Positions 3,320 through 38,855 of a stretch of DNA of 64,000 bases are shown here, piece after piece; within the stretch, counting starts at the first letter, position 1; the number at the start of each line of letters is the position of its first letter. Source of the stretch: Cryomorphaceae bacterium. Lineage in GTDB: Bacteria; Bacteroidota; Bacteroidia; Flavobacteriales_D; Crocinitomicaceae. The translations under genes were made by a program, and so were the position numbers. The stretch covers positions 1 to 64,000 of the forward strand of contig JAIXUE010000047.1 in the NCBI GenBank assembly GCA_027483605.1, read 5' to 3'. A model generated the notes under the pieces. That model searched no databases. It worked only from the letters and a program-made list of their open reading frames with translations, and was not told the origin of the DNA.

Positions 3320-3719
3320 GGGGTCGACATTGGATTTGACAGCGATAGCGGTAGTCAGGTGTCAGCATGCAGAGGCTTGTAGTGTTCCTCTTAAATCAAA
3401 TGCTACGAACAATAAATGACAACACGTCATACGCACTTGCTGCTTAATTAACTGAATGTTAGTTGGCTTAATCCGGCTGAAGTATAGTAGGCCAGACAAG
3501 TACTTCTGATGAACGGCCACCCTTTCGGTTCATCGCTCAGAAGTTCATCCTATAGGGTTAGTGTTGCCGATGGTTTTACCGCAACATGAAACTAAAAAAC
3601 CTAAGTATACGCGTTGGGTGTTCTTGTCCGGCCGCATATCGAAAACCAACCACGAACTAAGCATGTAGAAAGCTTGAAAACTCGTCGTTTGGACGAGGGT
3701 TCGAACCCCTCCGACTCCA
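3320..3719 (+). ncRNA. ssrA: tmRNA (transfer-messenger RNA)
   Basis: The 5' end GGGGTCG pairs with the 3' end CGACTCC (bases 3712-3718) to form a 7-bp acceptor stem with one G-U pair, followed by discriminator A at 3719. A T-arm GAGGGTTCGAACCCCTC lies just before the 3' strand. CCA is not encoded (the next bases are CTC) and must be added by nucleotidyltransferase. The internal reading frame ends in YALAA followed by TAA, the standard tag ending. About 400 nt is a normal length. tmRNA works with SmpB to rescue stalled ribosomes and mark the unfinished peptide for proteolysis. Confidence 0.96.
3418..3447 (+). other. tmRNA proteolysis-tag reading frame, predicted DNTSYALAA
   Basis: Reading back from TAA at 3445-3447 gives GAC AAC ACG TCA TAC GCA CTT GCT GCT. 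The last five residues YALAA are typical for tmRNA tags. The resume codon is taken as GAC at 3418 because the preceding AATAAAT resembles the bases before the resume codon in Bacteroides-type tmRNAs and gives a nine-residue tag like theirs (GETNYALAA, GENNYALAA). The exact resume codon is an inference; the ending is directly seen. Confidence 0.7.
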
Positions 3720-3893
3720 CTCTGATCAAAAAGCTACTCCATTGGAGTGGCTTTTTTTTTGTGGTAACAAATGAGGACTTGTCCTCAAATTTGTGAATAC
3801 ATAAAAAAAGACAGCATCGCCTTGTGATGAAGCTTTTTGATCCACTGCACGTTAGTTTATGGGGAAAGCGTCAGCTAACCCCTCCGACTCCAC
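3704..3893 (+). repeat. 17-bp direct repeat of the tmRNA 3' end (att-like)
   Basis: The bases AACCCCTCCGACTCCAC occur at 3704-3720 (inside ssrA) and again, unchanged, at 3877-3893, with no coding sequence between. In both copies a hairpin with a T-tract and then GTGrTAACAAA follows, so the second copy is a partial tandem duplication of the ssrA tail including a terminator. tmRNA 3' ends are well-known integration sites for phages and genomic islands, so this may be an old attachment-site scar; simple tandem duplication is the alternative. Confidence 0.75.
3732..3760 (+). terminator. Rho-independent terminator of ssrA
   Basis: AGCTACTCC-ATT-GGAGTGGCT forms a 9-bp stem (one G-U pair) with a 3-nt loop, followed by a run of nine T. 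It lies 12 bases after the mature tmRNA end. Confidence 0.9.
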
Positions 3894-19731: not shown

Positions 19732-22389
19732 ATGAAAATACTGCTGCTTTTTTTGTGTTGCTGTTTGGGAAGTTGGGCTCAAGTATATAAAGATCCATCC
19801 CAAACAACCAATGCGCGCGTAGCCGACCTACTTAGTCACATGACACCCGCAGAAAAAGCATGGCAGCTGTTCATGGTACCATCCGAATTTGATACCACAA
19901 AATGCCGTTTTACCGACGGCATTTTTGGTATTCAATTATTTGCCTCAGCACTTTCAGATCCCAATCAACAAATCCTAAACTATTCCAGTTCGAGCACCAA
20001 CCTTGAACTCATTGAGCGGGCCAACGACATTCAAAAACATTTCGTTGAAAACACGCGCCTAGGCATTCCTATCATCTTTTTTGACGAAGGCTTGCACGGT
20101 TTGGTGCGCGCTCAGGCCACGAGCTTTCCGCAAGCCATTGCCCTTGCGGCTACTTTTGACCCAAAGCTCGTGAGCAGCGCCGCAGCGCACATTGCGCGCG
20201 AAGCGCGCCTCATTGGCGTACGACAAATCTTGAGCCCCGTGCTCAACTTGGCCACAGATGTACGTTGGGGGCGTACCGAAGAAACCTTTGGCGAAGACCC
20301 TTACTTAGCCAGCCAAATGGGCGTCGCCTTTGTGTGGCCGCTCGAAAGCGCAGGTGTCGTCTGCACACCTAAGCATTTTATCGCCAACGTGGGTGCTGGC
20401 GGCCGCGACTCCTACCCCATTGGCCTGAGTGAGCGCGCGCTCTACATGAGCCAGTACCGACCTTTTCTAGCCGCTTTTCACGAAGGAAAAGCACGCTCGG
20501 TTATGAGCGCCTATAACTCGATAAATGGATATTCATCATCGAGTTCAAGCCAATTACTGCAACAAACACTCAAATCCGACTGGAACTTCAACGGATTTGT
20601 TATTTCAGACGCCAACGCAGTGGGGGGCACATTGGTTTTACACCGCACGGCTAGTACCTACAACGAAAGTGGCAAAGATGCCCTCGCGGCAGGCCTAGAC
20701 GTTATTTTTCAGACCGATTGCGCCCATTTTCAATTATTTGAACCCAGTTTACTCGGAAAGGAGTTAGCAAAAGCCCGCATCGATTCAGCAGTGGCCCGCG
20801 TATTGCGCGTGAAGTTTGAGCTTGGGCTATTTGAGCAGCCTTACTTGGCACTTCCCAAAGAAAAAGAAATTTCAAAACTCCTCGACGACGGCTTCATCAT
20901 TGCGCAAAAGTGTGCCGAACAATCCATGGTTCTATTGAAAAATGAAGCCAATGAAAAAGGGAAAGCTATTTTACCACTTGCCAAAGACAGCAAAATTTTA
21001 CTCTTGGGTGAAGCAGCAGCAACTGTCAAGCTCGGTGGCTACAGCGGTAAAGGTTATCAAAATGTAAGTATCAAAGATGGTTTGGAAGGGGCTTTTGGGC
21101 TCAAAAATGTAAGCTATTTTGCCTTGCCAGAAAATCCTTGGGGTACTCACAAAGTGGTACTCGAAACAAAAAATAGTTGGTTTGAGATTTCCAACGGATT
21201 CAAGGCTAGTTATTTCGACAACCCTACCCTGTCAGGAACACCCGTATGCAATAGAACTGAAAAGCAAATTGACCACCACTGGACACTCTACGGACCCGAT
21301 AGCACTACCGGGAACAGTTTCTTTTCTGCGCGCTGGGAGGCCCAATTAATTGGCAAGCAAAATACGACGCTCGATCTCGGTTTGGCTGGCAACGATGGCT
21401 TTCGTTTGTACCTCAACGACACCCTCCGCATAGATCAATGGGAAAAACAAGGATTTCACGAAAGAAAAATAGCTATCGACGTCAAAGAAGGGCAACAGTA
21501 TCAACTGCGCATTGAATTCCGAGAACCACAAGGAAATGGGCGAATCAAACTATTCGTTGAGGAACAGAGTAGTATAGACAGCCAAACTTATCTTGAGATA
21601 GAAAAGGTTTTGGACAGCGATGTTGCAGTCATTGTTGTAGACTACCCTGAAGGCGAATTTCAGGATCGTTCTTCTTTAGCTTTGGCACCAGCGCAAGTCA
21701 CACTCATCAAAGAAATCAAGGCCTGTGGTATACCAGTGGTTGTGGTCATTGTTGGGGGCAGCGCCGTGACCATGCAAGAATGGCAAGACGACGCCTCAGC
21801 TATTCTTTACAACTGGTACAGCGGTGAAGCTGGCGGCCTGGCGCTCGCCAATATCTTGAGTGGCAAAGTAAACCCTTCGGGGAAACTTCCTTTTTCCATT
21901 CCGCAGCACGAAGGCCAACTCCCCTTGAGTTATTGGCATGAAGCCACTGGCCGCGGCGACGACTACGTCAACGGCAGCGGCGAACCCCTCTACCCTTTTG
22001 GTTACGGGCTCAGCTATACCAAGTTTGAATACAGCCACTTCAAAATAGAGCAAAACACTTTCTCCTTGCCCAATGGAAACGACACCATAGCATTTTCTTT
22101 CCTACTTCAAAACACAGGGCAGTTCGACGGCGCAGAAGCCATTCAGTTTTACATCAAACCCATCTACAGCAAAGAAACCTTGCCTGTGCAATACCTCATC
22201 GACACCAAAAAAGTCGCGCTCAAAAAAGGCGAAACAATGGGCTTCGTTTCCTACAAAATTCCGCTATCAAAGTTAGGCATCCCAACAGGGCCAGGCTCAG
22301 ATGCGTACCCTATACAATTCCGAATCCAAATTGGTAGTTCTTCCAAGGACATTCGTTTGCAATCACAAATCCTTCAAATTCAATTTTAA
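19732..22389 (+). CDS. GH3 beta-glucosidase-type glycoside hydrolase with PA14 insert
   Basis: 885 residues with a signal peptide (ILLLFLCCCLGSWAQ). The order is that of BglX-like GH3 enzymes: TIM barrel (about 25-345) with nucleophile Asp293 in GFVISDANAVG, then the alpha/beta sandwich split by a PA14 domain at about 483-610 (NGFKASYFDNPTLSG to RIKLFVEEQ), and a C-terminal fibronectin III-like domain (NTGQFDGAEAIQFYI). PA14 inserts bind carbohydrate and shape the active site. The substrate is probably a beta-linked glucoside or xyloside of plant or algal origin. The stop overlaps the next start by one base (TAATG), so it is coupled to the SGNH hydrolase. Confidence 0.93.
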   Translation: MKILLLFLCCCLGSWAQVYKDPSQTTNARVADLLSHMTPAEKAWQLFMVPSEFDTTKCRFTDGIFGIQLFASALSDPNQQILNYSSSSTNLELIERANDIQKHFVENTRLGIPIIFFDEGLHGLVRAQATSFPQAIALAATFDPKLVSSAAAHIAREARLIGVRQILSPVLNLATDVRWGRTEETFGEDPYLASQMGVAFVWPLESAGVVCTPKHFIANVGAGGRDSYPIGLSERALYMSQYRPFLAAFHEGKARSVMSAYNSINGYSSSSSSQLLQQTLKSDWNFNGFVISDANAVGGTLVLHRTASTYNESGKDALAAGLDVIFQTDCAHFQLFEPSLLGKELAKARIDSAVARVLRVKFELGLFEQPYLALPKEKEISKLLDDGFIIAQKCAEQSMVLLKNEANEKGKAILPLAKDSKILLLGEAAATVKLGGYSGKGYQNVSIKDGLEGAFGLKNVSYFALPENPWGTHKVVLETKNSWFEISNGFKASYFDNPTLSGTPVCNRTEKQIDHHWTLYGPDSTTGNSFFSARWEAQLIGKQNTTLDLGLAGNDGFRLYLNDTLRIDQWEKQGFHERKIAIDVKEGQQYQLRIEFREPQGNGRIKLFVEEQSSIDSQTYLEIEKVLDSDVAVIVVDYPEGEFQDRSSLALAPAQVTLIKEIKACGIPVVVVIVGGSAVTMQEWQDDASAILYNWYSGEAGGLALANILSGKVNPSGKLPFSIPQHEGQLPLSYWHEATGRGDDYVNGSGEPLYPFGYGLSYTKFEYSHFKIEQNTFSLPNGNDTIAFSFLLQNTGQFDGAEAIQFYIKPIYSKETLPVQYLIDTKKVALKKGETMGFVSYKIPLSKLGIPTGPGSDAYPIQFRIQIGSSSKDIRLQSQILQIQF

Positions 22390-23621
22390 TGCGCATTCTT
22401 ATCCTCTCCGTTTCCCTCATGTGCTCCAATTTGTTGCTGGCCCAAGATACGCTGCGCGCGCTTTTCATCGGCAATAGTTACATGGGGGTCAATAACCTGC
22501 CTCAAATGGTTCAGGACCTGAGCAGCTCGCTTGGTGATGTCCTGCTTTATGACAGCAATACACCCGGAGGCCAAACTTTTCAAATGCACGCGAATAACCC
22601 TGTCAACTATCAAAAAATGGCCGCCCAAGAATGGGACTACATCATTTTACAGGGCCAAAGCCAAGAACCGAGCTTCCCTTACGGGCAAGTGAATACGCAA
22701 ACGCTCCCCTTTGCCGTGCAACTTGCCGATAGCGCCAAAGCCATTCAACCCTGCAGTCAGGTCAATTATTTCATGACCTGGGGACGCCAAAACGGCGATC
22801 CGCAATGGGATTCTATCAACACCTTCGACAAAATGAACACACGCCTGCGCGATGCCTATTTGCGCATTGCAGACTCCGCCAACGCTGCTGTTTCACCAGT
22901 TGCCGTTGCCTGGAAATATGTCCGAGACAACTACCCAGTGATCAATTTATACCAACAAGACGGCTCACACCCAAGTTTAACGGGCTCGTATTTGGCTGCT
23001 TGTGTATTTTATTCGTCGCTATATCACAAACCGAGCACGGGAAGTACTTATAACCCTGGTATTGACCTCGCAGATGCCCTGCTGCTGCAGCAAATTGCCA
23101 GTTCAATTGTCTTGGATAGCCTTTCAACTTGGAAACTCATTCATAGCGATAGTACACTGCAGGCGAATGCGAGTTACTCGAGTATTCCTGGCACGAGTTT
23201 ATTGAGTTTTTCAGCAACAGCCAACCAAGATGCCAATTTTACTTGGTATTTCCCCGACATGACTATAGAAACAGGACCAATCATTGGTTTTGAATACAAC
23301 CTCAGCACGTATCAAGTCATGCTAATTGCCGAAGGGCTTTGCGATACCGATACAGTCCTGATAGAAGTCAATAATCCAGGTGCTGGATTCTCTGAGCTGA
23401 GTTCCATACAATGGAAATGGATCAAGCCTACACAAATTGATGTATACAGCTCATCAATCCTTGAAATTCAAGCTATAGATTTACTCGGAAAAGTACTTTC
23501 AACTGAGCGAGAAGCCATTCAAAATGGAACCCGCCTTACCTTTGGGCCTTCCACTTCTTTTTTAAGGATAAACACGCCCAATGAGGCGACAATCATAAGG
23601 GTTCCTTACCTGCTTAATTGA
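22389..23621 (+). CDS. Secreted SGNH/GDSL-type hydrolase (DUF4886-like)
   Basis: 410 residues with a signal peptide (LILSVSLMCSNLLLAQ). The serine block is RALFIGNSYMGVNNLP with Ser30 as likely nucleophile, and the Asp/His block is DGSHPSLTGSYLAA around residue 195, giving a complete SGNH triad. WDYIILQGQSQEP matches the DUF4886-like subgroup. The last ~150 residues form a separate Ser-rich beta domain that may be a degenerate surface or sorting domain; it lacks the YPNP motif of T9SS type A tails. Coupling to the GH3 gene suggests it removes acyl groups from the glycan the GH3 enzyme cuts. It overlaps the convergent TPR gene by 8 bases. Confidence 0.82.
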   Translation: MRILILSVSLMCSNLLLAQDTLRALFIGNSYMGVNNLPQMVQDLSSSLGDVLLYDSNTPGGQTFQMHANNPVNYQKMAAQEWDYIILQGQSQEPSFPYGQVNTQTLPFAVQLADSAKAIQPCSQVNYFMTWGRQNGDPQWDSINTFDKMNTRLRDAYLRIADSANAAVSPVAVAWKYVRDNYPVINLYQQDGSHPSLTGSYLAACVFYSSLYHKPSTGSTYNPGIDLADALLLQQIASSIVLDSLSTWKLIHSDSTLQANASYSSIPGTSLLSFSATANQDANFTWYFPDMTIETGPIIGFEYNLSTYQVMLIAEGLCDTDTVLIEVNNPGAGFSELSSIQWKWIKPTQIDVYSSSILEIQAIDLLGKVLSTEREAIQNGTRLTFGPSTSFLRINTPNEATIIRVPYLLN

Positions 23622-29865: not shown

Positions 29866-31572
29866 TTATTCGAACTTGTAAGACACACCCGTTACTTGCG
29901 TCAAGAGTGTTTGAGGCGCATCGAGCACCTTGGCATTGCCCTGAGGGCTTGGCGTTACAACTTTGTGCGTTGTAAGGTAACTTTCCATCACTTTATGCAG
30001 CGTATGAACGGTATTTTGCGCGTTTTGTACGCCTTTAATGCGACAAAGCATATCGGCAGGATCTCCGTCGCGCTCACAAGCTAAAATACGATATGTTTTT
30101 GTTTTGTCGAGCGGCTGCCCTCCAACAATGGCTTTTTGAACGCGCTTGCCTTGTTCTGCAAAGGCTAAAAATTCAACTTCCATTCCTTTGAATTTGATGA
30201 CCCAGCCACCAAAGCGCTTAGACGCATCTTTTGCAAAGACATTATTGAGTTCTTTCTCGAGCCAATCTGCTATTTGTTGACCTGTGACCTCTGCGGTGCG
30301 CACGGTAGAATCTACAGGTAGCATGTCAAAAATAAAGCCTTTGGTGATCGGGATATTGCCCGTATGATCTGGAGTGGTGCGCGGCGGACAAAAACGAAAG
30401 CCATTAGATAACACGATATCTATTTCGGGGAATTTCCAATCCAAGGCGTTTAAGATCATCGTATCGATCGGATTTTCAACTACAAAATAGCGGTAAAGTG
30501 GAATGGTGCTGTAACCTACTACCCTGTTAATTTCAGCTGCAAAAGTAGCTTCATTAGACTTTAAAATCGCCTGCATTTGGGAATCTGGCTTGAGCGATGG
30601 CGCTTTCACCTCTAGTAGTTCGTAACGCTCTGCCGTGAGCTTTCCATTTTCAAAATCGAGTTCTAAAGAACCTACAAATGAACCAAAAGCCCCTGGCTCC
30701 ACAACTTTGCTATAAGCACATTGGATAGGTTTCCTGACCCGCTCATGGGTATCGCCACCAAAAATGTAATCAACACCTTTGCAAGACGGGTCGTTGGCCA
30801 ACGCGATTTGCTGAGACAAACCAAGGTGTGCAAGCATAATGACAACCGCGCATTGTTCTTGGTTACGGAGTACATCCACGTAATGTGCCAAATTTTCTTC
30901 CGGCTTGGTGTAAATGATTCCCTTGCTGTAATTAGGGCTCTGGCGCAAAGGTACCAAAGGATCGGTATAACCTAAAAAGCCAATTTTAATGCCTTCGTGT
31001 TCCCAAATATGGTAAGGTTGAAAAATAAGCTCACCTTTTTGCCCATTGCCTAAGTCATGGTACATGTTTGTACACACTTTAGGCGCGCGCAGCGCGCCCA
31101 TGAGTTGCTGCATCTTTTGCTTACCATAGATAACCTCCCAGTTACCCGGCAAATACAAATGGTAGTCCATTGCATTTAAAATCGGGACAAACGCTTGACC
31201 TGTAGTCTCGACACTTAGTTGTGAACCCTGAAACATGTCGCCGGTGTCCACCAAAAATGTATTGGGATTTTTCTTTTTGAGTTGCTTTAAAAATGTCTGT
31301 AATTGCGCATATCCTCCGGTTTTTCTAAATACAGCCTTTTCGTTTTCCCAGAAAAGCTCGTCGTGCGGATGAATTTGACAATGTACATCTGTTGTTTGTA
31401 AAAGTTGGAGCGTAAGTACGCCGTTTTTTCTTTTGGCTTCTTGCAAATCGACGTTTTCACTCATGAAAATTTTATCGTCACTTGTTTGCGCCAAAAAATT
31501 CGGAGCAAGTAGACTTCCTAAACCGGCTGTACCGATCGTTTTGAGAAAGTTTCTTCTTTGTTGTTTGGACAT
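29866..31572 (-). CDS. Tat-exported SoxB-like metallophosphoesterase / 5'-nucleotidase-family protein
   Basis: 568 residues from the ATG at 31572; the ORF-track extension overlaps the TauE gene. Residues 4-28 carry a twin-arginine signal (QQRRNFLKTIGTAGLGSLL). The calcineurin-like metal site is present: Asp62/His64 (TTDVHCQ), Asp112 (DTGDMFQGS), Asn144 (LPGNWEVIYG), MLAHLG and GGDTHER. GNWExxYG resembles SoxB (GHWEFTYG) more than ordinary 5'-nucleotidases (GNHEFDYG), and IVLSNGFRF plus RFGGWVIKF echo the SoxB C-terminal domain. SoxB hydrolyses sulfate from thiosulfate bound to SoxYZ, but no soxYZ is seen here. A 5'-nucleotidase is the alternative. Last gene of the seven-gene sulfur operon. 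Confidence 0.7.
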   Translation of the reverse strand: MSKQQRRNFLKTIGTAGLGSLLAPNFLAQTSDDKIFMSENVDLQEAKRKNGVLTLQLLQTTDVHCQIHPHDELFWENEKAVFRKTGGYAQLQTFLKQLKKKNPNTFLVDTGDMFQGSQLSVETTGQAFVPILNAMDYHLYLPGNWEVIYGKQKMQQLMGALRAPKVCTNMYHDLGNGQKGELIFQPYHIWEHEGIKIGFLGYTDPLVPLRQSPNYSKGIIYTKPEENLAHYVDVLRNQEQCAVVIMLAHLGLSQQIALANDPSCKGVDYIFGGDTHERVRKPIQCAYSKVVEPGAFGSFVGSLELDFENGKLTAERYELLEVKAPSLKPDSQMQAILKSNEATFAAEINRVVGYSTIPLYRYFVVENPIDTMILNALDWKFPEIDIVLSNGFRFCPPRTTPDHTGNIPITKGFIFDMLPVDSTVRTAEVTGQQIADWLEKELNNVFAKDASKRFGGWVIKFKGMEVEFLAFAEQGKRVQKAIVGGQPLDKTKTYRILACERDGDPADMLCRIKGVQNAQNTVHTLHKVMESYLTTHKVVTPSPQGNAKVLDAPQTLLTQVTGVSYKFE

Positions 31573-31601
31573 GGTGATGTAGTTTAGGTGGTGTAATTGG
31601 G

Positions 31602-32435
31602 TCAGTGGGAAGAAGTGCCAGGAAAGGCCAATTCTTTGATAATGATATAGATTCCCATCACCAGAACAAACCAACCAAAGCCTTTTTTAAGTGCTGCTCC
31701 GTTGATCTTCTTGGATAAGTTGTTTCCAATAAAAATACCGATAATTGCTAAAATGGTAACAACGATAAGTAAAGTCCAGTCCATTTTGGAAGCATTTTCA
31801 CTGACGTCACCGGTAAACCCAATCAATGATTTTGCGGCAATGATCAATAAACTGGTTCCTACCGCTTGTTTCATTGGTAGTTTACTCAGCATCACCAATG
31901 CAGGAATAATTAGAAATCCACCCCCAGCACCGACTAGGCCCGTCAAAACGCCAACAACTGTGCCTTCTAACAATATCATGGGATAATTAAACACACGCGC
32001 TTCATTACTTTCGCTTTCTCCGGTTTTTTTATCTCGAATCATAGAAACAGAAGCCGCAACCATGAGTATTGCAAATAAGATCATCATGGCAAGGGCTTTG
32101 GTAATTGAAATACCGCCCAAATCAAAGAGCGTGGCTGGTATGGCCGGAACCAAAATCTTTCTGGTAAAAAAAACGGCTATGATAGACGGAATCCCGAACA
32201 CTATTGCTGTTTTTAAATCAATCATACCCGCTCTATATTTTGGAAACGCGCCCACTAAACTACTCAGACCTACAATAAATAAGGAATAAGCAGTGGCTAA
32301 AACGGGATCGACATTGAATAAATAAACCAAAACTGGAACGGTCAAAATAGAGCCGCCTCCACCAATGAGGCCAAGTGATATCCCGATTAGGGTACTGGCG
32401 AGTAAGCCAAAAATAGTCAGTAAGTCAAAAGTCAT
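31602..32435 (-). CDS. TauE/SafE-family sulfite/organosulfonate exporter
   Basis: 277 residues with about eight hydrophobic segments and the two internally repeated TauE/SafE blocks: GLIGGGGSILTVPVLVYLFN near the N-terminus and GLVGAGGGFLIIPALVML in the second half. Members export sulfite, sulfoacetate or related anions, or take up sulfur compounds. Between a porin and a SoxB-like gene in a sulfur cluster, sulfite or thiosulfate is the likely substrate. Ten-base gap to the porin, 29 to the SoxB-like gene. Confidence 0.92.
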   Translation of the reverse strand: MTFDLLTIFGLLASTLIGISLGLIGGGGSILTVPVLVYLFNVDPVLATAYSLFIVGLSSLVGAFPKYRAGMIDLKTAIVFGIPSIIAVFFTRKILVPAIPATLFDLGGISITKALAMMILFAILMVAASVSMIRDKKTGESESNEARVFNYPMILLEGTVVGVLTGLVGAGGGFLIIPALVMLSKLPMKQAVGTSLLIIAAKSLIGFTGDVSENASKMDWTLLIVVTILAIIGIFIGNNLSKKINGAALKKGFGWFVLVMGIYIIIKELAFPGTSSH

Positions 32436-32444
32436 TTTAGAGAG

Positions 32445-33884
32445 TTAAAAGTGATAATTCAGTACAAAATTGGTCAAGAGCATATTGACTTTATTGATTT
32501 GGTATTTAGGGTTATTATACATTTCACCAAGACCGTATTTGCAAACGAGCAGCAATTGGCCCTCAAGGCCCTGCATGAGTTGACTCAACTGAAAACGAAA
32601 ATCTATATTAGCTTGTAAATAACTAGGCATGCTATATTTGTTTAAAGCATAATTATGTACATCGGGTAACTGGAAATAACCCACCGAAAAAGCCGACTTC
32701 TTAAAAACAGATGCTGTATTTTGGTTCTCCACTTTCAAGACTACTGCATGTACGTCTCCAAAGCCCTCGTTGCGTTCGCGCGGCATGAAGGTGTAAAACG
32801 GGTCTCTGCCCCATTCTCTCGGAAACAAATAACGGCCCTCGGCAGTAATCCGGTTATAATTGATGGAATAATGCGATTTATCAAATTCAAACCGCGTACG
32901 AAATCCGTAGGTCAGTGATTTGGAGCCTTTGGCAATATATGTCATGGATTGATCCTCGTTGCCACCATCTCCAAGTGCCCATTGCCTCATGATTTGCGCA
33001 CCATTAGACCACACAAACTTTTTGGCCTTATAGGCATGTTGGATTTGATGAAAAGTACTATTAAACAAGCCAGGTAAATGATAATCCCAAGCTTGGTACT
33101 CTATATTTTTAGAAGGTTTGAAAGTGAAGGACGCTACCCCAATAAAAGGCAGATCTATATTTCCCCTGAAATTAGAGGATGTTCCATCGGGGTTAACTCC
33201 TTGGCTATATAAACCAATAGATTCCGCTCCTCGATACCATTTTGTGGTACTGCGTGGAGAAATGGCAGTAAGTACACCACCCTGAAAACGCCATTTTTCA
33301 TTGAGGTGCTGATTGAGCCACAACCCTTCCACACCTGTGCCGCGCATGCGACCGTCTTGAATATTGATCAGTGGTGTATTGATGAGCTGCCTACCTAACA
33401 AAAGCTGTCCATTTTTGAAATTATATTTCAAATACAACTCCTCGAGCCGATCCATATCGCGGTGGTTATCTGGATTTTCGATATCAAACAGTCCGATTTC
33501 ATATCTACTCAACACCCCCGTCGTAGGGTCAGGATCATGTAATACCGAAGAGCCTATATTGAAAAAATAAAAGCCACTAACGGCAAACTGAAAGTGATGA
33601 AAAGAGTTGGTTTCAAAGCGCAAACCACCCCCAATTGCATTGGCATAAAATTCTGAAAGTGTACCTTCATTCGTTGTTTGACTCATGAAATACCTAAAAT
33701 GCCCGGCTGTGGCACCTGTTTTAAAGGCATACAATAAGGAAGTTGAATCCATCACATCTTGCGGCCTTCCCTTCCACATAACGGGCTGATCAGAAAGCTC
33801 GTGATGCTGGGCCCAAGTTGAAACTGATGTATGAAACAAAAGGATCGTGAAACAAATAAAGATTGGATTAACTTTCAATTTCAT
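32445..33884 (-). CDS. OprD-like outer membrane porin
   Basis: 479 residues with a signal peptide (PIFICFTILLFHTSVSTWAQ) and a full-length beta-barrel pattern ending in NFVLNYHF. The block LEELYLKYNFKNGQLLLGRQLINTPLINIQDGRMRGTGVEG resembles the conserved region of OprD-family porins, which carry small organic or inorganic anions. Its place between tsdA-like and tauE-like genes suggests entry or exit of thiosulfate, tetrathionate or sulfate across the outer membrane. Confidence 0.75.
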   Translation of the reverse strand: MKLKVNPIFICFTILLFHTSVSTWAQHHELSDQPVMWKGRPQDVMDSTSLLYAFKTGATAGHFRYFMSQTTNEGTLSEFYANAIGGGLRFETNSFHHFQFAVSGFYFFNIGSSVLHDPDPTTGVLSRYEIGLFDIENPDNHRDMDRLEELYLKYNFKNGQLLLGRQLINTPLINIQDGRMRGTGVEGLWLNQHLNEKWRFQGGVLTAISPRSTTKWYRGAESIGLYSQGVNPDGTSSNFRGNIDLPFIGVASFTFKPSKNIEYQAWDYHLPGLFNSTFHQIQHAYKAKKFVWSNGAQIMRQWALGDGGNEDQSMTYIAKGSKSLTYGFRTRFEFDKSHYSINYNRITAEGRYLFPREWGRDPFYTFMPRERNEGFGDVHAVVLKVENQNTASVFKKSAFSVGYFQLPDVHNYALNKYSMPSYLQANIDFRFQLSQLMQGLEGQLLLVCKYGLGEMYNNPKYQINKVNMLLTNFVLNYHF

Positions 33885-33932: not shown

Positions 33933-34901
33933 TTACTTTTTCGGCTTTTTCATTGCGGTAAAAGGACCATATTTATGCTGTAGTTCAGAAAACGCATCTG
34001 CGTAGGGTCCGAACGGGTGGTCAATTGGCTTTTTTGTAATATCGGGCCAATCTTTTGGCACTGCTTTGTGTGGTCTGGGTTGGCTTTCTATGTAAGCGGC
34101 AACATCCCAGGCGTCTTCGTCCGAAAGCTCTGGTGCATCGTGATTAACTCCCAACGGCATGTTGTACTTTAAGTATTTAGCCATATTCGAGATACGACTT
34201 AAACCCGCAGCGTCATTGAAACTATGTGGCCCCCAAAGTGGTGGATACACATAAGATTGGCCGATGCCATCAATGATGCCTTGCCCATTCAATTGATGAC
34301 AACTTGAACAACGTAAATCGTAGACCAACTTTCCTTTGTGAGGGTCCGCAGCACGTGTTAAAAAAGGCAGCTCTTTTAAACCTGAGCCCGCTGCTTTTTC
34401 ACCTTTGGGGACGTTCTCTCCCAAAAACTTCATGTAAGCTACCATAGCGCGCATTTCTTTGCTGTTTTCTTTTAATGGTTTTCCATTCAAACTGCGTTCA
34501 AAACAATCATTGATGCGTTTTTCTATGCTTTCCATTTTACCACTTCGAGCGCGCACCTTAGGATAGGTAGAAGCAACCGAACCATAGTTGTTCCCGAAGG
34601 GCTTGGTGCCTGCATCTAAATGGCAGTTTTGGCAATTCATGCCATTTGTCTGCTGCGCAATGCGACCTTTTGGGCCAAAATAATAGGCCGTATGGATGAT
34701 GAGATCGCGACCGTAGAGAACCTCGTCCGATTTTTTCTCCTCCTTGATGGCAAAAACATCGGCTGGTTGCCAAAATGCGCCAACAGGTGTTGCTTGTATT
34801 TCTTCAGTGGAGAGTTGCTCCAATTGAAGTTCATTAGTCGTACAAGAAACCAACGCGAGCAAAATGTACACAAACAAATAGGTTTGGTATTTAAACTTCA
34901 C
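33933..34901 (-). CDS. tsdA: TsdA-like diheme thiosulfate dehydrogenase (lipoprotein)
   Basis: 322 residues from a GTG start. A lipobox (LLALVSC, Cys20) anchors the protein. Two heme c sites are present: C90-Q-N-C-H94 and C198-S-S-C-H202. YPKVRARSGKMESIEKRINDC matches the TsdA signature, and Cys133 lies 39 residues after His94, the same interval as between His57 and the unusual heme-1 axial ligand Cys96 in Allochromatium vinosum TsdA. The C-terminal cytochrome shows YVYPPLWGPHSFND. TsdA oxidises two thiosulfates to tetrathionate, or the reverse, outside the cytoplasm. Most TsdA are soluble periplasmic proteins; lipidation here is a variation. Confidence 0.9.
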   Translation of the reverse strand: MKFKYQTYLFVYILLALVSCTTNELQLEQLSTEEIQATPVGAFWQPADVFAIKEEKKSDEVLYGRDLIIHTAYYFGPKGRIAQQTNGMNCQNCHLDAGTKPFGNNYGSVASTYPKVRARSGKMESIEKRINDCFERSLNGKPLKENSKEMRAMVAYMKFLGENVPKGEKAAGSGLKELPFLTRAADPHKGKLVYDLRCSSCHQLNGQGIIDGIGQSYVYPPLWGPHSFNDAAGLSRISNMAKYLKYNMPLGVNHDAPELSDEDAWDVAAYIESQPRPHKAVPKDWPDITKKPIDHPFGPYADAFSELQHKYGPFTAMKKPKK

Positions 34902-34909
34902 GACCTAAA

Positions 34910-35323
34910 TTAATGAGGGAGTTTATTTTGAAAAACACCATATAGGTAAGTGCCTACCGATGCAAAGAAAACCACAACAATAAAACTCAAGTAACCATAA
35001 CCAATATTGACTACCATTGGACCTGGACAGGCGCCGCTCAAGGCCCAACCTAATCCGAAAATGGTTCCTCCGATGAGGTAACGCCAAAAACCTTTTTCTT
35101 TAGGTGTAAAGACAATTTTAGCTTTTGAAAAATCTTTCCAATGGTTCTTTTTGATCAGAGCAGTGCCAATAATACCTAATACCACTGCTGTCCCGATGAT
35201 GCCATACATGTGAAAGCTCTGAAAGCGAAACATCTCCTGGATGCGATACCAACTCAAGGCCTGTGACTTGGCCATTACGATGCCGAACAAAATGCCGACG
35301 ACTAAAAACTTAATGAATTTCAT
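34910..35323 (-). CDS. YeeE/YedE-family transporter, C-terminal half protein (PmpB/DUF6691-like)
   Basis: 137 residues, four hydrophobic segments, with the conserved motif GWALSGACPGPMVVNIGYG, whose cysteine corresponds to the substrate-relay cysteine of YeeE/YedE thiosulfate transporters. With the next gene upstream it forms a two-gene version of the transporter; the gap is 3 bases. Split halves of this kind (PmpA/PmpB) occur together with persulfide-handling proteins in other bacteria. Confidence 0.88.
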   Translation of the reverse strand: MKFIKFLVVGILFGIVMAKSQALSWYRIQEMFRFQSFHMYGIIGTAVVLGIIGTALIKKNHWKDFSKAKIVFTPKEKGFWRYLIGGTIFGLGWALSGACPGPMVVNIGYGYLSFIVVVFFASVGTYLYGVFQNKLPH

Positions 35324-35326
35324 GAC

Positions 35327-35884
35327 TTAAAAGATCAATGGGAAAATAAAATGTGTCATCAGCAAGCCTCCGATGAAGAAGCCAATTACGGCGATTAGAG
35401 ACGGTAGCTGTAAATTGGATATACCTGATATGGCGTGTCCTGAAGTACAGCCACCGGCGTAGCGCGAGCCGAAACCTACGAGTAACCCACCGATTGCTAA
35501 CACAGAAAATCCTTTCAAAGTAAAAATGGCCTCCCAACTAAAAAGTTCTGTTGGTTGAATCTCATGTGCCTTTTCAAATCCTAATTTGGCTAAATCTTTT
35601 GCGGTACTTTCTGCAATTTGAAAACTAGCACCATCATTCAAAAAAGTATTGGCCAGATATCCTCCAATGATGGCCCCAACCAGAAAAACAAGGTTCCAAG
35701 ATTGGGTTTTCCAATCAAAATCAAAGAATTTGACCCGTTTTCCTGCACCCGCTAAGGTGCAGATGGTTCGGAGATTGGAAGAAAAACCAAAGGTTTTTCC
35801 GAAGAATAACATCAAGAACATTACCGTGGCAATGATGATCCCTGAAAACCACCAGGGCCAGGGTTGCATTAAAAAATGAAGCAT
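35327..35884 (-). CDS. YeeE/YedE-family transporter, N-terminal half protein (PmpA-like)
   Basis: 185 residues with about five hydrophobic segments. The motif SRYAGGCTSGHAISGIS carries the conserved Cys of YeeE/YedE. It sits 21 bases after the MBL-rhodanese gene and 3 bases before the second half. Known homologues move thiosulfate or a protein-passed persulfide sulfur across the inner membrane. It would supply or remove sulfur for the dioxygenase/rhodanese encoded just upstream. Confidence 0.88.
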   Translation of the reverse strand: MLHFLMQPWPWWFSGIIIATVMFLMLFFGKTFGFSSNLRTICTLAGAGKRVKFFDFDWKTQSWNLVFLVGAIIGGYLANTFLNDGASFQIAESTAKDLAKLGFEKAHEIQPTELFSWEAIFTLKGFSVLAIGGLLVGFGSRYAGGCTSGHAISGISNLQLPSLIAVIGFFIGGLLMTHFIFPLIF

Positions 35885-35905: not shown

Positions 35906-37321
35906 TTAAATTTTATGGACTTTGCTTTGACAAATAAAGTCTGTTTTTGGAATGGCCGTTTTGGCAATTGCACTAAATCCACCGTCTATTTCTGTAAAGT
36001 TACGGTAGCCGCGCGCTTGCAAAATAGAAGCGGCGATCATGCTGCGGTAACCACCTGCACAGTGCATAAAGAAATGTTGGTCTGGTTGAATATCTTTGGT
36101 CCAGTCGTTGATGTAAGCCAGCGGGCGGCTGTAAGCATCTTCCACGTGTTCCGCCTCATATTCGCTTTCTTTGCGTACGTCGACTACCATCGATTTGCCT
36201 GCTTCAAATTGTGCAGCAAACGCTTCTGCAGTGATGCGATTGATTTGATCTACTTCCTTGCCAGCAGCTACCCAAGTAGCAAAACCACCCCCTAGGTAAC
36301 CCAAAACTTTGTCAAAACCAACGCGGCTCAAGCGCGTCACGACTTCTTCTTCCATACCTGGTTCAGTAATCAAAACGATTTCTTGTTTGACATCACCAAT
36401 TAGTGCACCAACCCATGGTGCGAAATCGCCGCGAATACCAATATTAATAGCTTGTGGTATAAATCCTTTGTGAAAATCTGCTGCAGGGCGCGTATCGAGA
36501 ATAAGTGCACCAGTAGCCTCAACAATTGTTTCAAAAGCATCGGCAGAAAGTGCCGTAAGTGCTTTGGCTTTGACGTCTTCAAAGCTGTCATAACCTTTTT
36601 TATTCATCGCTACATTGTGACCAAAATAAGCTGGCGGAGGCAACAAACCATCGGTTACAGCTGCAATAAACGCCTCTTTGTTAGGCTGATTGAGTGCATA
36701 ATTCATTTTCTTTTGATTCCCGAGCGAATCAACCGTTTCTTTCATCATGTTTTTACCACACGCAGAGCCTGCGCCATGCGCTGGATAAACTGTAACGTCG
36801 TCTGCCAAAGGCATGATTTTAGTCATTAATGAATCGTAAAGCATGCCCGCGAGTTGATCTTGGGTCATGTCGGCAGCTTTTTGAGCGAGGTCAGGACGGC
36901 CTACATCTCCTAAAAAGAGGGTGTCTCCTGAAAAGATGGCTTCATCTTTACCCTCCTCATTGATAAGTAAAAACGTAGTGCTCTCCATGGTGTGCCCTGG
37001 TGTATGCAACACTTTAATTTTCACATTGCCAATTTCAAATACCTGTCCGTCGTCTGCAATAATGGCATCGAACTCGGTCTTTGCAGTAGGTCCGTATACT
37101 ATAGGAGCTCCTGTTTGCTTACTCAAATCGAGATGACCAGAAACAAAATCTGCATGAAAATGCGTTTCAAAAATATATTTAAGTTTCACACCATCTGCTT
37201 CAATTCTATCTAGATATGGCTGAATTTCGCGCAATGGATCAATGATAAATGCCTCATTTCCACTTACTACGTAATATGCTCCTTGAGCCAAACAACCTGT
37301 ATAAATTTGTTCTATTTTCAT
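35906..37321 (-). CDS. ETHE1-like MBL-fold hydrolase fused to two rhodanese domains (persulfide dioxygenase-type)
   Basis: 471 residues, no signal peptide, so cytoplasmic. Residues 1-250 are a metallo-beta-lactamase fold of the ETHE1/glyoxalase II type: ETHFHADFVSGHLDL, FSGDTLFLGDVGRPD and YPAHGAGSACG. Two rhodanese domains follow at about 260-350 and 365-465. The second carries the active-site cysteine Cys421 (HCAGGYRS). The first has no cysteine in the corresponding loop (LITEPGMEEE) and should be inactive. ETHE1 enzymes oxidise glutathione persulfide to sulfite; rhodaneses move sulfane sulfur between thiosulfate, thiols and sulfite. It is the first gene of the seven-gene operon, behind a palindromic operator at 37370. 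Confidence 0.93.
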   Translation of the reverse strand: MKIEQIYTGCLAQGAYYVVSGNEAFIIDPLREIQPYLDRIEADGVKLKYIFETHFHADFVSGHLDLSKQTGAPIVYGPTAKTEFDAIIADDGQVFEIGNVKIKVLHTPGHTMESTTFLLINEEGKDEAIFSGDTLFLGDVGRPDLAQKAADMTQDQLAGMLYDSLMTKIMPLADDVTVYPAHGAGSACGKNMMKETVDSLGNQKKMNYALNQPNKEAFIAAVTDGLLPPPAYFGHNVAMNKKGYDSFEDVKAKALTALSADAFETIVEATGALILDTRPAADFHKGFIPQAINIGIRGDFAPWVGALIGDVKQEIVLITEPGMEEEVVTRLSRVGFDKVLGYLGGGFATWVAAGKEVDQINRITAEAFAAQFEAGKSMVVDVRKESEYEAEHVEDAYSRPLAYINDWTKDIQPDQHFFMHCAGGYRSMIAASILQARGYRNFTEIDGGFSAIAKTAIPKTDFICQSKVHKI

Positions 37322-37340
37322 TTTTTTGGTTTTAAAGTAT

Positions 37341-37348
37341 CAAATGTA
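37341..37348 (-). promoter_or_regulatory. -7 box of the sulfur-oxidation operon
   Basis: The minus strand reads TACATTTG, an exact TAnnTTTG match, ending 20 bases before the ATG at 37321. The palindrome TGTAACACTTGTTACA is centred 36.5 nt upstream of the last base of this box, the same distance as at the second sulfur promoter. Confidence 0.65.
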
Positions 37349-37369: not shown

Positions 37370-37385
37370 TGTAACACTTGTTACA
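37370..37385. promoter_or_regulatory. Palindromic operator, sulfur operon (CRP/FNR-type)
   Basis: TGTAACACTTGTTACA is a perfect palindrome (TGTAACA-N2-TGTTACA). It fits the general CRP/FNR/NtcA pattern of two TGTnA-type half sites about 8 bases apart. Its centre would lie about 41 bases upstream of the predicted transcription start, the usual class II activator position. A second copy of the TGTAACnnnnGTTACA form is at 38815. Confidence 0.75.
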
Positions 37386-37400
37386 AATGCCCTTAATGAG

Positions 37401-38360
37401 TTAGTGATTGAAGAATAACAAGAGGCTGATTTGCAACCCAAATACAATTAGTGCAAATAGCAACCCGCGCTGACCAGCTTTTAACAAGCGAAAGACATCT
37501 ACCTTTAGACCAATTGCTGCCATCGCAATGGTAAGAATGATCTTGCCAATGGTTTCACTACCCTTTAATAAGATTGCAGGCAAAGGGAAAAAACTCACTA
37601 AAATCGATATCACAATAAATACAATAAGGTACCAAGGTAGTTGGAAACGAAATTTTTGCGCATTAGACTTTCGAGAATCAAGCCAAACCATAAATAATAA
37701 GGCCGGTGACAACAACGCAACACGCGCCATTTTATACACAAGAGCCAATTGCCCAACGTCTTCTGAAACCGAAAAACCAGCACCTGCCACATTGCCCACT
37801 GAATGTAGAGATGTTCCGATCAAAAAGGCCATTTCTTTTTCTAAAAGTGGATAAAATTGAAACCACAATGGCAATAGAACCATACCCAGAGAACCCAAAA
37901 GATTAACTGATGCCAATGAAATGGCAACATCCTCTTTATCTGCTTTGATTTTAGGAGCCAATGCAGCAACTGCCGAAGAACCACAAATAGCTGTTCCAAT
38001 ACCTATCAACCAACTTGTTTTACCTGGACAAGATAAAACTTTTGACAAATAATAGGTAGCGAGTAAAACCACAAAAATCACCAGAATAATCACTGCAAAA
38101 TCCTTTACACCTATCGCTCCAATGGCTTTATAATCCATGCTAAATGCCAAAAGTACAACTGACCATTCCAATAATTTGGAGGAGCTCAAGCTAATACCGG
38201 CATCAAGTTGCGAAATTTTATTGACCTGTGGCGCCAAAAACATTCCTATCAAAAGGGCCAGCAAATAGGAATTGAGAAATGAAGGTGTAAAACCCGCTAA
38301 AAAAATGGCTGCAAGTCCGAGTCCTACAGCCAATACTATTCCTGGTAATTTTGTGCGCAT
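37401..38360 (-). CDS. YeiH/PSE-family putative sulfate exporter
   Basis: 319 residues with nine to ten membrane segments. The family blocks GIGTAICGSSAVAALAPKIKADKEDVAISLASVNLLG and HSVGNVAGAGF identify the Cons_hypoth698/PSE group, in which a few members are linked to export of sulfate or sulfonate-derived products. It follows the rhodanese gene after 16 bases. In this setting it would remove the sulfate formed by oxidation. The transported ion is not demonstrated for most of the family. Confidence 0.88.
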   Translation of the reverse strand: MRTKLPGIVLAVGLGLAAIFLAGFTPSFLNSYLLALLIGMFLAPQVNKISQLDAGISLSSSKLLEWSVVLLAFSMDYKAIGAIGVKDFAVIILVIFVVLLATYYLSKVLSCPGKTSWLIGIGTAICGSSAVAALAPKIKADKEDVAISLASVNLLGSLGMVLLPLWFQFYPLLEKEMAFLIGTSLHSVGNVAGAGFSVSEDVGQLALVYKMARVALLSPALLFMVWLDSRKSNAQKFRFQLPWYLIVFIVISILVSFFPLPAILLKGSETIGKIILTIAMAAIGLKVDVFRLLKAGQRGLLFALIVFGLQISLLLFFNH

Positions 38361-38376
38361 AAAAAACCCTTACAAC

Positions 38377-38766
38377 TTATGGTTTAGAGACAATTTTACC
38401 GCCCCAAGAAGAGATTCCTCCTTGCATATTGATCACATTTTTAAAGCCGCTGTCTACCATCACCTGACTTGCACCAGCACTGCGTCCACCGCTTCTGCAA
38501 TAAACAATATAGGTTTTAGATTTATCTAACTTGGCTAATTGCTGCTGGAAAGATGCACTCTTGTAATCAATAAAAAGATCTGCACCTGAAATCACACCTT
38601 GCTGCCACTCTTCAGGGGTACGCACGTCTATTACAATTGCTTTTTGCTCTGCTTTCATTTTTGAAAGTTCTGCAATCGGCGCATTTTTATAAGTGGATTG
38701 TGCAGAGGAAGTACAAGACCACAACGTTAGGGTTAAGAGAGCAAGTAAAGAGAAAATTTTCATCAT
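38377..38766 (-). CDS. Lipoprotein rhodanese
   Basis: A single-domain sulfurtransferase of about 129 residues. The ORF-track start is a TTG at 38772; the ATG at 38766 (or the adjacent one at 38763) is preferred. The signal ends with LTLWSC, a lipobox, so the enzyme is anchored in the periplasm or outer membrane. Rhodanese blocks are VIDVRTPEEWQQG and the active-site loop YCRSGGRSA with its catalytic cysteine. It would handle sulfane sulfur outside the cytoplasm, beside the lipoprotein TsdA. First gene of the two-gene operon with the PSE exporter; a twin of the sulfur operator lies 50 bases upstream. Confidence 0.9.
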   Translation of the reverse strand: MMKIFSLLALLTLTLWSCTSSAQSTYKNAPIAELSKMKAEQKAIVIDVRTPEEWQQGVISGADLFIDYKSASFQQQLAKLDKSKTYIVYCRSGGRSAGASQVMVDSGFKNVINMQGGISSWGGKIVSKP

Positions 38767-38785
38767 GTTCAAAGTTTAATTTTTA

Positions 38786-38793
38786 CAAAGATG
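38786..38793 (-). promoter_or_regulatory. -7 box of the rhodanese/exporter operon
   Basis: The minus strand reads CATCTTTG, one base off TAnnTTTG, ending 19 bases before the ATG at 38766. Its last base is 36.5 nt from the centre of the palindrome at 38815-38830. Confidence 0.55.
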
Positions 38794-38814
38794 CAGAACT
38801 TCCACGGACTAATC

Positions 38815-38830
38815 TGTAACTAGCGTTACA
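38815..38830. promoter_or_regulatory. Palindromic operator of the rhodanese/exporter operon
   Basis: TGTAACTAGCGTTACA contains perfect 6-base arms TGTAAC and GTTACA separated by 4 bases, like the site at 37370. No third full copy was found when reading the window for GTAAC/GTTAC pairs. Confidence 0.75.
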
Positions 38831-38833
38831 CAA

Positions 38834-38855
38834 AAAAGCCACTTGCGTGGCTTTT
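38834..38855 (-). terminator. Terminator downstream of the chalcone-isomerase-like gene
   Basis: On the minus strand AAAAGCCAC-GCAA-GTGGCTTTT forms a 9-bp stem followed by a T run. It ends transcription of the upstream gene (38879-39442) four bases before the sulfur operator, so the rhodanese operon starts from its own promoter. Confidence 0.8.

Follow-up and report, generated by a model that had tools for sequence, protein, structure and literature searches.

The locus considered here raises the question of whether two palindromes of the same form, each ahead of a minus-strand set of sulfur genes within a 64,000-nucleotide window (contig C43) of a Crocinitomicaceae genome, act as regulatory switches, and if so which protein reads them and in response to what. 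Both 16-mers are located where the original prediction had them (Table 1), and the identical distance it had claimed, 36.5 nt from operator centre to the last base of a -7 box, is exact at both promoters (37377.5-37341; 38822.5-38786). The two boxes were likewise placed correctly, although the second departs from TAnnTTTG at one position. Outside operator and box the two promoters appear unlike by eye, and an origin of the pair by duplication was not supported.

Table 1. Features of the window and operator-box places on other contigs of the same genome (positions without a contig label refer to the window; coordinates with a contig label are those of operator and box)
Feature	Position	Strand	Sequence or assignment	Remark
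Operator 1	37370..37385	-	TGTAACAAGTGTTACA on the minus strand, centre 37377.5, probable position -41.5	Exact palindrome; conserved in orthologous promoters
Operator 2	38815..38830	-	TGTAACGCTAGTTACA on the minus strand, centre 38822.5, probable position -41.5	Exact palindrome
-7 box, MBL-rhodanese operon promoter	37341..37348	-	TACATTTG	TAnnTTTG match at the invariant spacing
-7 box, rhodanese-YeiH promoter	38786..38793	-	CATCTTTG, one mismatch	Spacing as for operator 1
Stem-loop with A/T tracts	38832..38855	-	Probable terminator of the upstream chalcone-isomerase-like gene	Abuts operator 2; read from sequence
MBL-rhodanese protein, 471 aa, CstB-like	35906..37321	-	First gene of operon 1	Pfam Lactamase_B and two Rhodanese stretches
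Two half-length YeeE/YedE sulfur transport proteins	34910..35884 (35327-35884, 34910-35323)	-		Pfam Sulf_transp
Diheme cytochrome c with SoxA/TsdA domain	33933..34901	-		Pfam Cytochrom_C, SoxA-TsdA_cyt-c
OprD-like porin	32445..33884	-	Probable operon 1 member	Pfam OprD just over cut-off; order as in L015
TauE/SafE sulfite exporter family protein	31602..32435	-	Probable operon 1 member	Pfam TauE
SoxB-like 5'-nucleotidase family protein	29866..31674	-	Probable end of operon 1	Pfam Metallophos, 5_nucleotid_C
Secreted-type single-domain rhodanese	38377..38772	-	First gene of operon 2	Pfam Rhodanese
YeiH-family putative sulfur anion permease	37401..38360	-	Second gene of operon 2	Pfam Cons_hypoth698
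Thioredoxin reductase	C1			Downstream of operator and box
Two single-domain rhodaneses	C11			Downstream of operator and box
Thioredoxin	C5:17435-17479 (L156)			Downstream of operator and box
SpeD-SpeE fusion	C14:8449-8493 (L155)			Downstream of operator and box
DUF983, then Crp/Fnr gene	C47:21725-21769 (L157)			Downstream of operator and box
YidD	C5:24855-24899 (L170)			Weaker operator and box, 3 mismatches

The first gene of operon 1 encodes a predicted enzyme of CstB-type architecture, a single chain in which two rhodanese-type domains come after an MBL domain, and its product matches PDB chains 3tp9 (E 5e-64) and 3r2u (E 2e-53) over nearly the whole length. Several neighbouring products stay below the specific family models: the YeeE/YedE proteins are well under the TsuA cut-off, the diheme cytochrome c is under that of the SoxA equivalog and the YeiH-family protein under that of TIGR00698, while the SoxB-like protein, whose true start lies inside the tabulated reading frame, reaches 250 bits against a SoxB cut-off of 550. 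TauE genes are preceded directly by the operator in other genomes. The operon 2 rhodanese likely starts at the ATG at 38766 or 38763. The window also holds a tmRNA gene (3320-3720) with the tag peptide DNTSYALAA.

In the 2,394,771-base assembly, a draft of 50 contigs (2.39 Mb), pattern searches find exactly two copies of TGTAACn4GTTACA, both in the window, where base composition leads one to expect about 0.2 distinct sites per genome, a palindromic site being identical on either strand and counted once. That the window contains no third full palindrome is thus true even of the whole genome, and the random genome-wide scatter named beforehand as evidence against a regulatory role did not appear in the scan. 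Seven further sites carry one mismatch, about as many as for a reversed-pattern control, so that by itself the palindrome stands out only slightly. The weight of the case rests instead on its combination with the -7 box at the 36.5-nt spacing, a pattern of 18 specified positions found at 5 places with at most one mismatch (0.025 expected from base composition) and at 7 with at most two (0.59 expected). Near-perfect palindromes with perfect boxes at this spacing are present on other contigs.

Conservation was assessed in 80 Bacteroidota loci collected through the MBL-rhodanese protein, which are its closest matches and include many Flavobacterium that are near kin. Fifty-one of these loci, orthologous promoters whose lack of the operator had been proposed as a refutation, carry it with at most two mismatches within 300 bases ahead of the MBL gene, while 25 are without a clear site. 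The 57 sites comprise 4, 11 and 42 with none, one and two mismatches respectively, against Markov-shuffle means of 0, 0.125 and 1.4 (about 1.5 together); the degenerate pattern TGTRACn4GTYACA was picked after the relatives had been viewed, the exact palindrome and the spacing having been fixed beforehand. When boxes downstream of the operators were listed with no presupposed distance, 36 of 39 perfect TAnnTTTG boxes lay at one identical distance, and with one mismatch allowed there are 49 boxes whose first base is exactly 29.5 nt away from the operator centre, equivalent to 36.5 nt to the last.

A second collection, of 60 relatives selected independently of the MBL gene, holds 99 operator-box places at one mismatch or fewer and only 2 for a reversed control pattern. 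It could be argued that the palindromes arose by chance or are terminator remnants devoid of regulatory function, given that a hairpin abuts operator 2 and that one-mismatch palindromes are no commoner than the control, but conservation, fixed spacing and co-occurrence with a regulator stand so far above controls that this reading has a negligible probability. The two palindromes are very probably real regulatory switches. In a relative (G003) it is the MBL operator that this terminator hairpin adjoins.

In Flavobacterium psychrophilum, start-site mapping places the sigma-A box at -12 to -5 (PMC9723704), which together with the fixed spacing puts the operator centre at -41.5. On this basis transcription of the MBL-rhodanese operon would start near 37336 and that of rhodanese-YeiH near 38781, and the class II placement near -41 that had been proposed is borne out by a spacing invariant across the phylum, with a two-fold site computed at -41.5. 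At the thioredoxin and DUF983 genes the ATG follows the box by only 4 nt, and with leaderless starts +1 would be the A of the ATG and the operator again at -41.5; the ATG of YidD is likewise 4 nt past its box, and all three messages are probably leaderless. Upstream of MBL, tandem operators 29 or 39 nt apart occur in L042 (-113, -84), L052, L068 and L090, with the nearer operator alone in the -41.5 register.

This geometry bears on the direction of control. Repression is how persulfide sensors of the BigR kind are known to work (PMC7315123), and a protein occupying -49 to -34 might also obstruct polymerase, in which case its main action would be repression, relieved by sulfur species in the manner of ArsR- or CsoR-type sensors. 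The exact -41.5 spacing in dozens of promoters is, however, a mark of class II activation, as for NtcA, and so is the -33 region of the seven own-genome sites, where no TTG lies between -36 and -30; repression is accordingly an improbable reading, and activation is what we infer.

Gene order around the operators varies among the loci. The rhodanese-YeiH pair with operator 2 is found in L015 and missing from L016-L019, where the chalcone-isomerase-like gene stands directly before MBL, and the second promoter has arrived or departed together with the rhodanese-YeiH cassette. Three of these loci (L016, L017 and L019), titled Sphingomonadales or Chryseobacterium gleum, have a gene order nearly identical to Crocinitomicaceae loci, and their record names look wrong.

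Beyond the two promoters of the window (MBL-rhodanese operon; rhodanese-YeiH), operator and box precede the genes on other contigs listed in Table 1, among which the SpeD-SpeE fusion and the thioredoxin reductase were named by eye from sequence and general Pfam domains. The SpeD-SpeE (polyamine) fusion is a surprising member of a sulfur regulon, with counterparts behind operator and box in G001, G002 and G004. Close relatives add a second thioredoxin and a multicopper oxidase, as well as, in G001, a sulfide:quinone oxidoreductase (SQR) matching a PDB SQR at E ~1e-112; a search of the own genome found no SQR. In distant genomes the site stands before MBL-rhodanese, TauE, YedE, rhodanese, DUF983, YgaP-type membrane protein and thioredoxin genes; in G021 the regulator gene itself follows it directly. 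A secreted protein of about 493 aa, role unassigned, also has operator and box in two genomes distant from this one (L186, G006 C40:17687; L191, G031 C7:71815). Of the dedicated sulfur regulon originally envisaged, the sulfur genes therefore stand, whereas "dedicated" does not, because thioredoxin, thioredoxin reductase, SpeD-SpeE and the regulator operon also have the site: the regulon covers sulfane sulfur and thiol redox and is wider than sulfur alone.

The trans-acting Crp/Fnr-family factor that had been postulated finds a fitting counterpart on another contig. Three proteins of the genome have a cNMP-type domain (on C47, C39 and C22), and that on C47 (P0001, about 22144-22791, 216 aa from the first Met, start codon uncertain) belongs to the Crp/Fnr superfamily, with 30.8 bits for PF00027 (cut-off 27.5) and 36.8 for PF13545 (cut-off 27). 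Its closest PDB chains are the uncharacterised Crp/Fnr protein 3dv8 and NtcA, matches that point to a predicted Crp/Fnr fold. More specific assignments fail, as the NtcA equivalog model gives 44.5 bits against a cut-off of 244.95 and the CRP equivalog model 39.5 against 266. Counted from the first Met, its only cysteines are Cys112, 118 and 119, all in the effector domain, and there are none of the N-terminal [4Fe-4S] ligand cysteines of FNR-type proteins. Cys112 is invariant in 64/64 relatives and Cys118 present in 47/64, and the recognition helix, R217-V-V-I-S-R222, has R217 and R222 invariant in the same number of relatives (64).

Genomic linkage points to the same protein. In a number of loci a Crp/Fnr gene to which P0001 is related is found some 1 kb away from MBL, and further loci have it no more than 10 kb away; the operon of P0001 itself is preceded by the operator in G000 (the own genome), G003, G004 and G005, and by coordinates the regulator genes of G044, G056, G057, G071 and G091 also have it. 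The C47 protein is the best candidate factor and a putative binder of the operators. A further proposal, that a V/E residue of the helix determines one base of the operator (C at base 13 accompanies RE in 21/24 loci and RV in 5/23), was dropped, the RE rows being mostly one Flavobacterium clade and L017-L019 breaking the rule.

One of the other two proteins might be the factor instead, either that on C39, with its N-terminal CxxC and ETLIR helix, or that on C22, the signal then being oxygen or redox state. The C39 gene has a palindrome with a single mismatch about 100 nt ahead of it, and L016 and L017 carry the CRP-type half site TGTGAC, their MBL operator being TGTGACn4GTCACA, the CRP consensus; the L017 genome nevertheless has a regulator whose recognition helix is identical to that of the window genome. 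The C39 palindrome, however, lacks a box at the required distance and sits before a terminator, and autoregulation of that gene was rejected on these grounds. Neither protein (helices ETLIR on C39 and ESLSR) is a relative of the MBL-linked regulator, both falling outside its group in a tree that, with very long branches, is supportive at most, and operator presence tracks the C47 relative. A role for the C39 or C22 protein is thus very improbable.

The last point draws on the 37 same-genus genomes, in which operator places occur in 23/23 with the regulator and 2/14 without it (Fisher 4.9e-8, a value that overstates independence as the genomes are related); the two regulator-less genomes with an operator are 81% and 84% complete. 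Seven regulator-less congeners, 93-100% complete, retain TrxB and a diverged MBL-rhodanese protein, and none of the seven has the operator before either gene, the MBL upstream regions of G053 and G062 being judged from operator-box places and G047 having no located MBL start. These congeners are mutually related and their MBL protein is diverged, so operator loss may reflect lineage. Sites also drift where the regulator is kept: a recognisable TrxB site is present in 4 of the 10 regulator-bearing congeners examined and missing in 6.

Taken with the C47 protein as regulator, the operators are very likely class II sites at -41.5 for a trans-encoded, dimeric Crp/Fnr activator that would drive a sulfane-sulfur and thiol-homeostasis regulon. 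The dimer is envisaged to bind GTnAC-N4-GTnAC through its NtcA-like recognition helix and, seated at -41.5, to substitute for the missing -33 element, aiding sigma-A RNA polymerase at the TAnnTTTG box, 22 nt beyond the GTAAC-N4-GTTAC core. Its targets would be the CstB-like MBL-rhodanese gene with the YedE transporters, TauE and cytochrome, rhodanese-YeiH and further rhodaneses, followed by thioredoxin, thioredoxin reductase, SpeD-SpeE and its own DUF983-regulator operon, with SQR in a relative.

The signal is a more tentative matter. The invariant Cys112 suggests thiol or persulfide sensing, and a persulfide or other thiol-reactive sulfur species acting at this residue would be the most likely input; judged from the targets and Cys112 together, sulfane sulfur or another thiol-reactive species is a plausible signal, held at somewhat less than even odds. 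The activator may equally be correctly identified and yet respond to general thiol redox, a small metabolite or sulfur limitation, as could be read from the presence of thioredoxin, thioredoxin reductase and SpeD-SpeE among the targets and from NtcA, the closest characterised homologue by sequence, which senses 2-oxoglutarate. Against this, most of the conserved targets (MBL-rhodanese, rhodaneses, YedE, TauE, SQR) act on sulfane sulfur and Cys112 does not vary, and such a signal likewise falls a little short of an even chance. With similar reserve, a Bacteroidota-wide Crp/Fnr subfamily may be proposed that senses sulfane sulfur via Cys112, a persulfide-responsive class II activator serving as the phylum's counterpart of FisR, BigR and CstR, with H2S detoxification, thioredoxin and its own gene as targets.

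If true, Bacteroidota, a major phylum inhabiting gut, soil and sea, would gain a reactive-sulfur regulator with its operator, core gene set and exact promoter coordinates, the Crp/Fnr superfamily would join the ArsR, CsoR and sigma-54 types in sulfane-sulfur control, and the unusual sigma-A of Bacteroidota, with TAnnTTTG as its box, would have a well-defined class II promoter set. The literature searched, which left subscription papers mostly outside, yielded no description of a Crp/Fnr regulator of persulfide-detoxification genes; the mechanism is of a known kind, while regulator, operator and regulon look undescribed.

The nearest known system is cyanobacterial NtcA, whose binding site in class II promoters is GTAN8TAC centred at -41.5 (PMC3898017). 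TGTAACn4GTTACA includes that motif, its centre is also at -41.5 with 22 nt from core to -7/-10 box, and the recognition helices are alike (SRVVISR in P0001, TRVTVTR in NtcA), but P0001 is not an orthologue, the targets are sulfur and thiol rather than nitrogen genes, the phylum is different and the box here is TAnnTTTG. Escherichia coli CRP also occupies a two-fold site at -41.5 in class II promoters, a likeness that reaches the operator sequence in L016 and L017, whereas the consensus here is TGTAACn4GTTACA or TGTAACn4GTCAC. With regard to the genes controlled, FisR and BigR of Acinetobacter baumannii govern persulfide dioxygenase, SQR, TauE and YeeE-YedE genes (PMC7315123). These are the same gene kinds as in the present regulon, although FisR belongs to the sigma-54 activators and BigR to the ArsR-type repressors, whereas here a Crp/Fnr protein would act through class II operators. 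In Staphylococcus aureus the cst operon, to which PDB 3r2u presumably belongs, comprises genes for an MBL-rhodanese fusion enzyme, TauE and a rhodanese under CstR. The combination of these genes under one sulfur-responsive control is shared with the system described here, but CstR is a CsoR-family repressor and no Crp/Fnr protein takes part there, while the present regulon would be of Crp/Fnr type.
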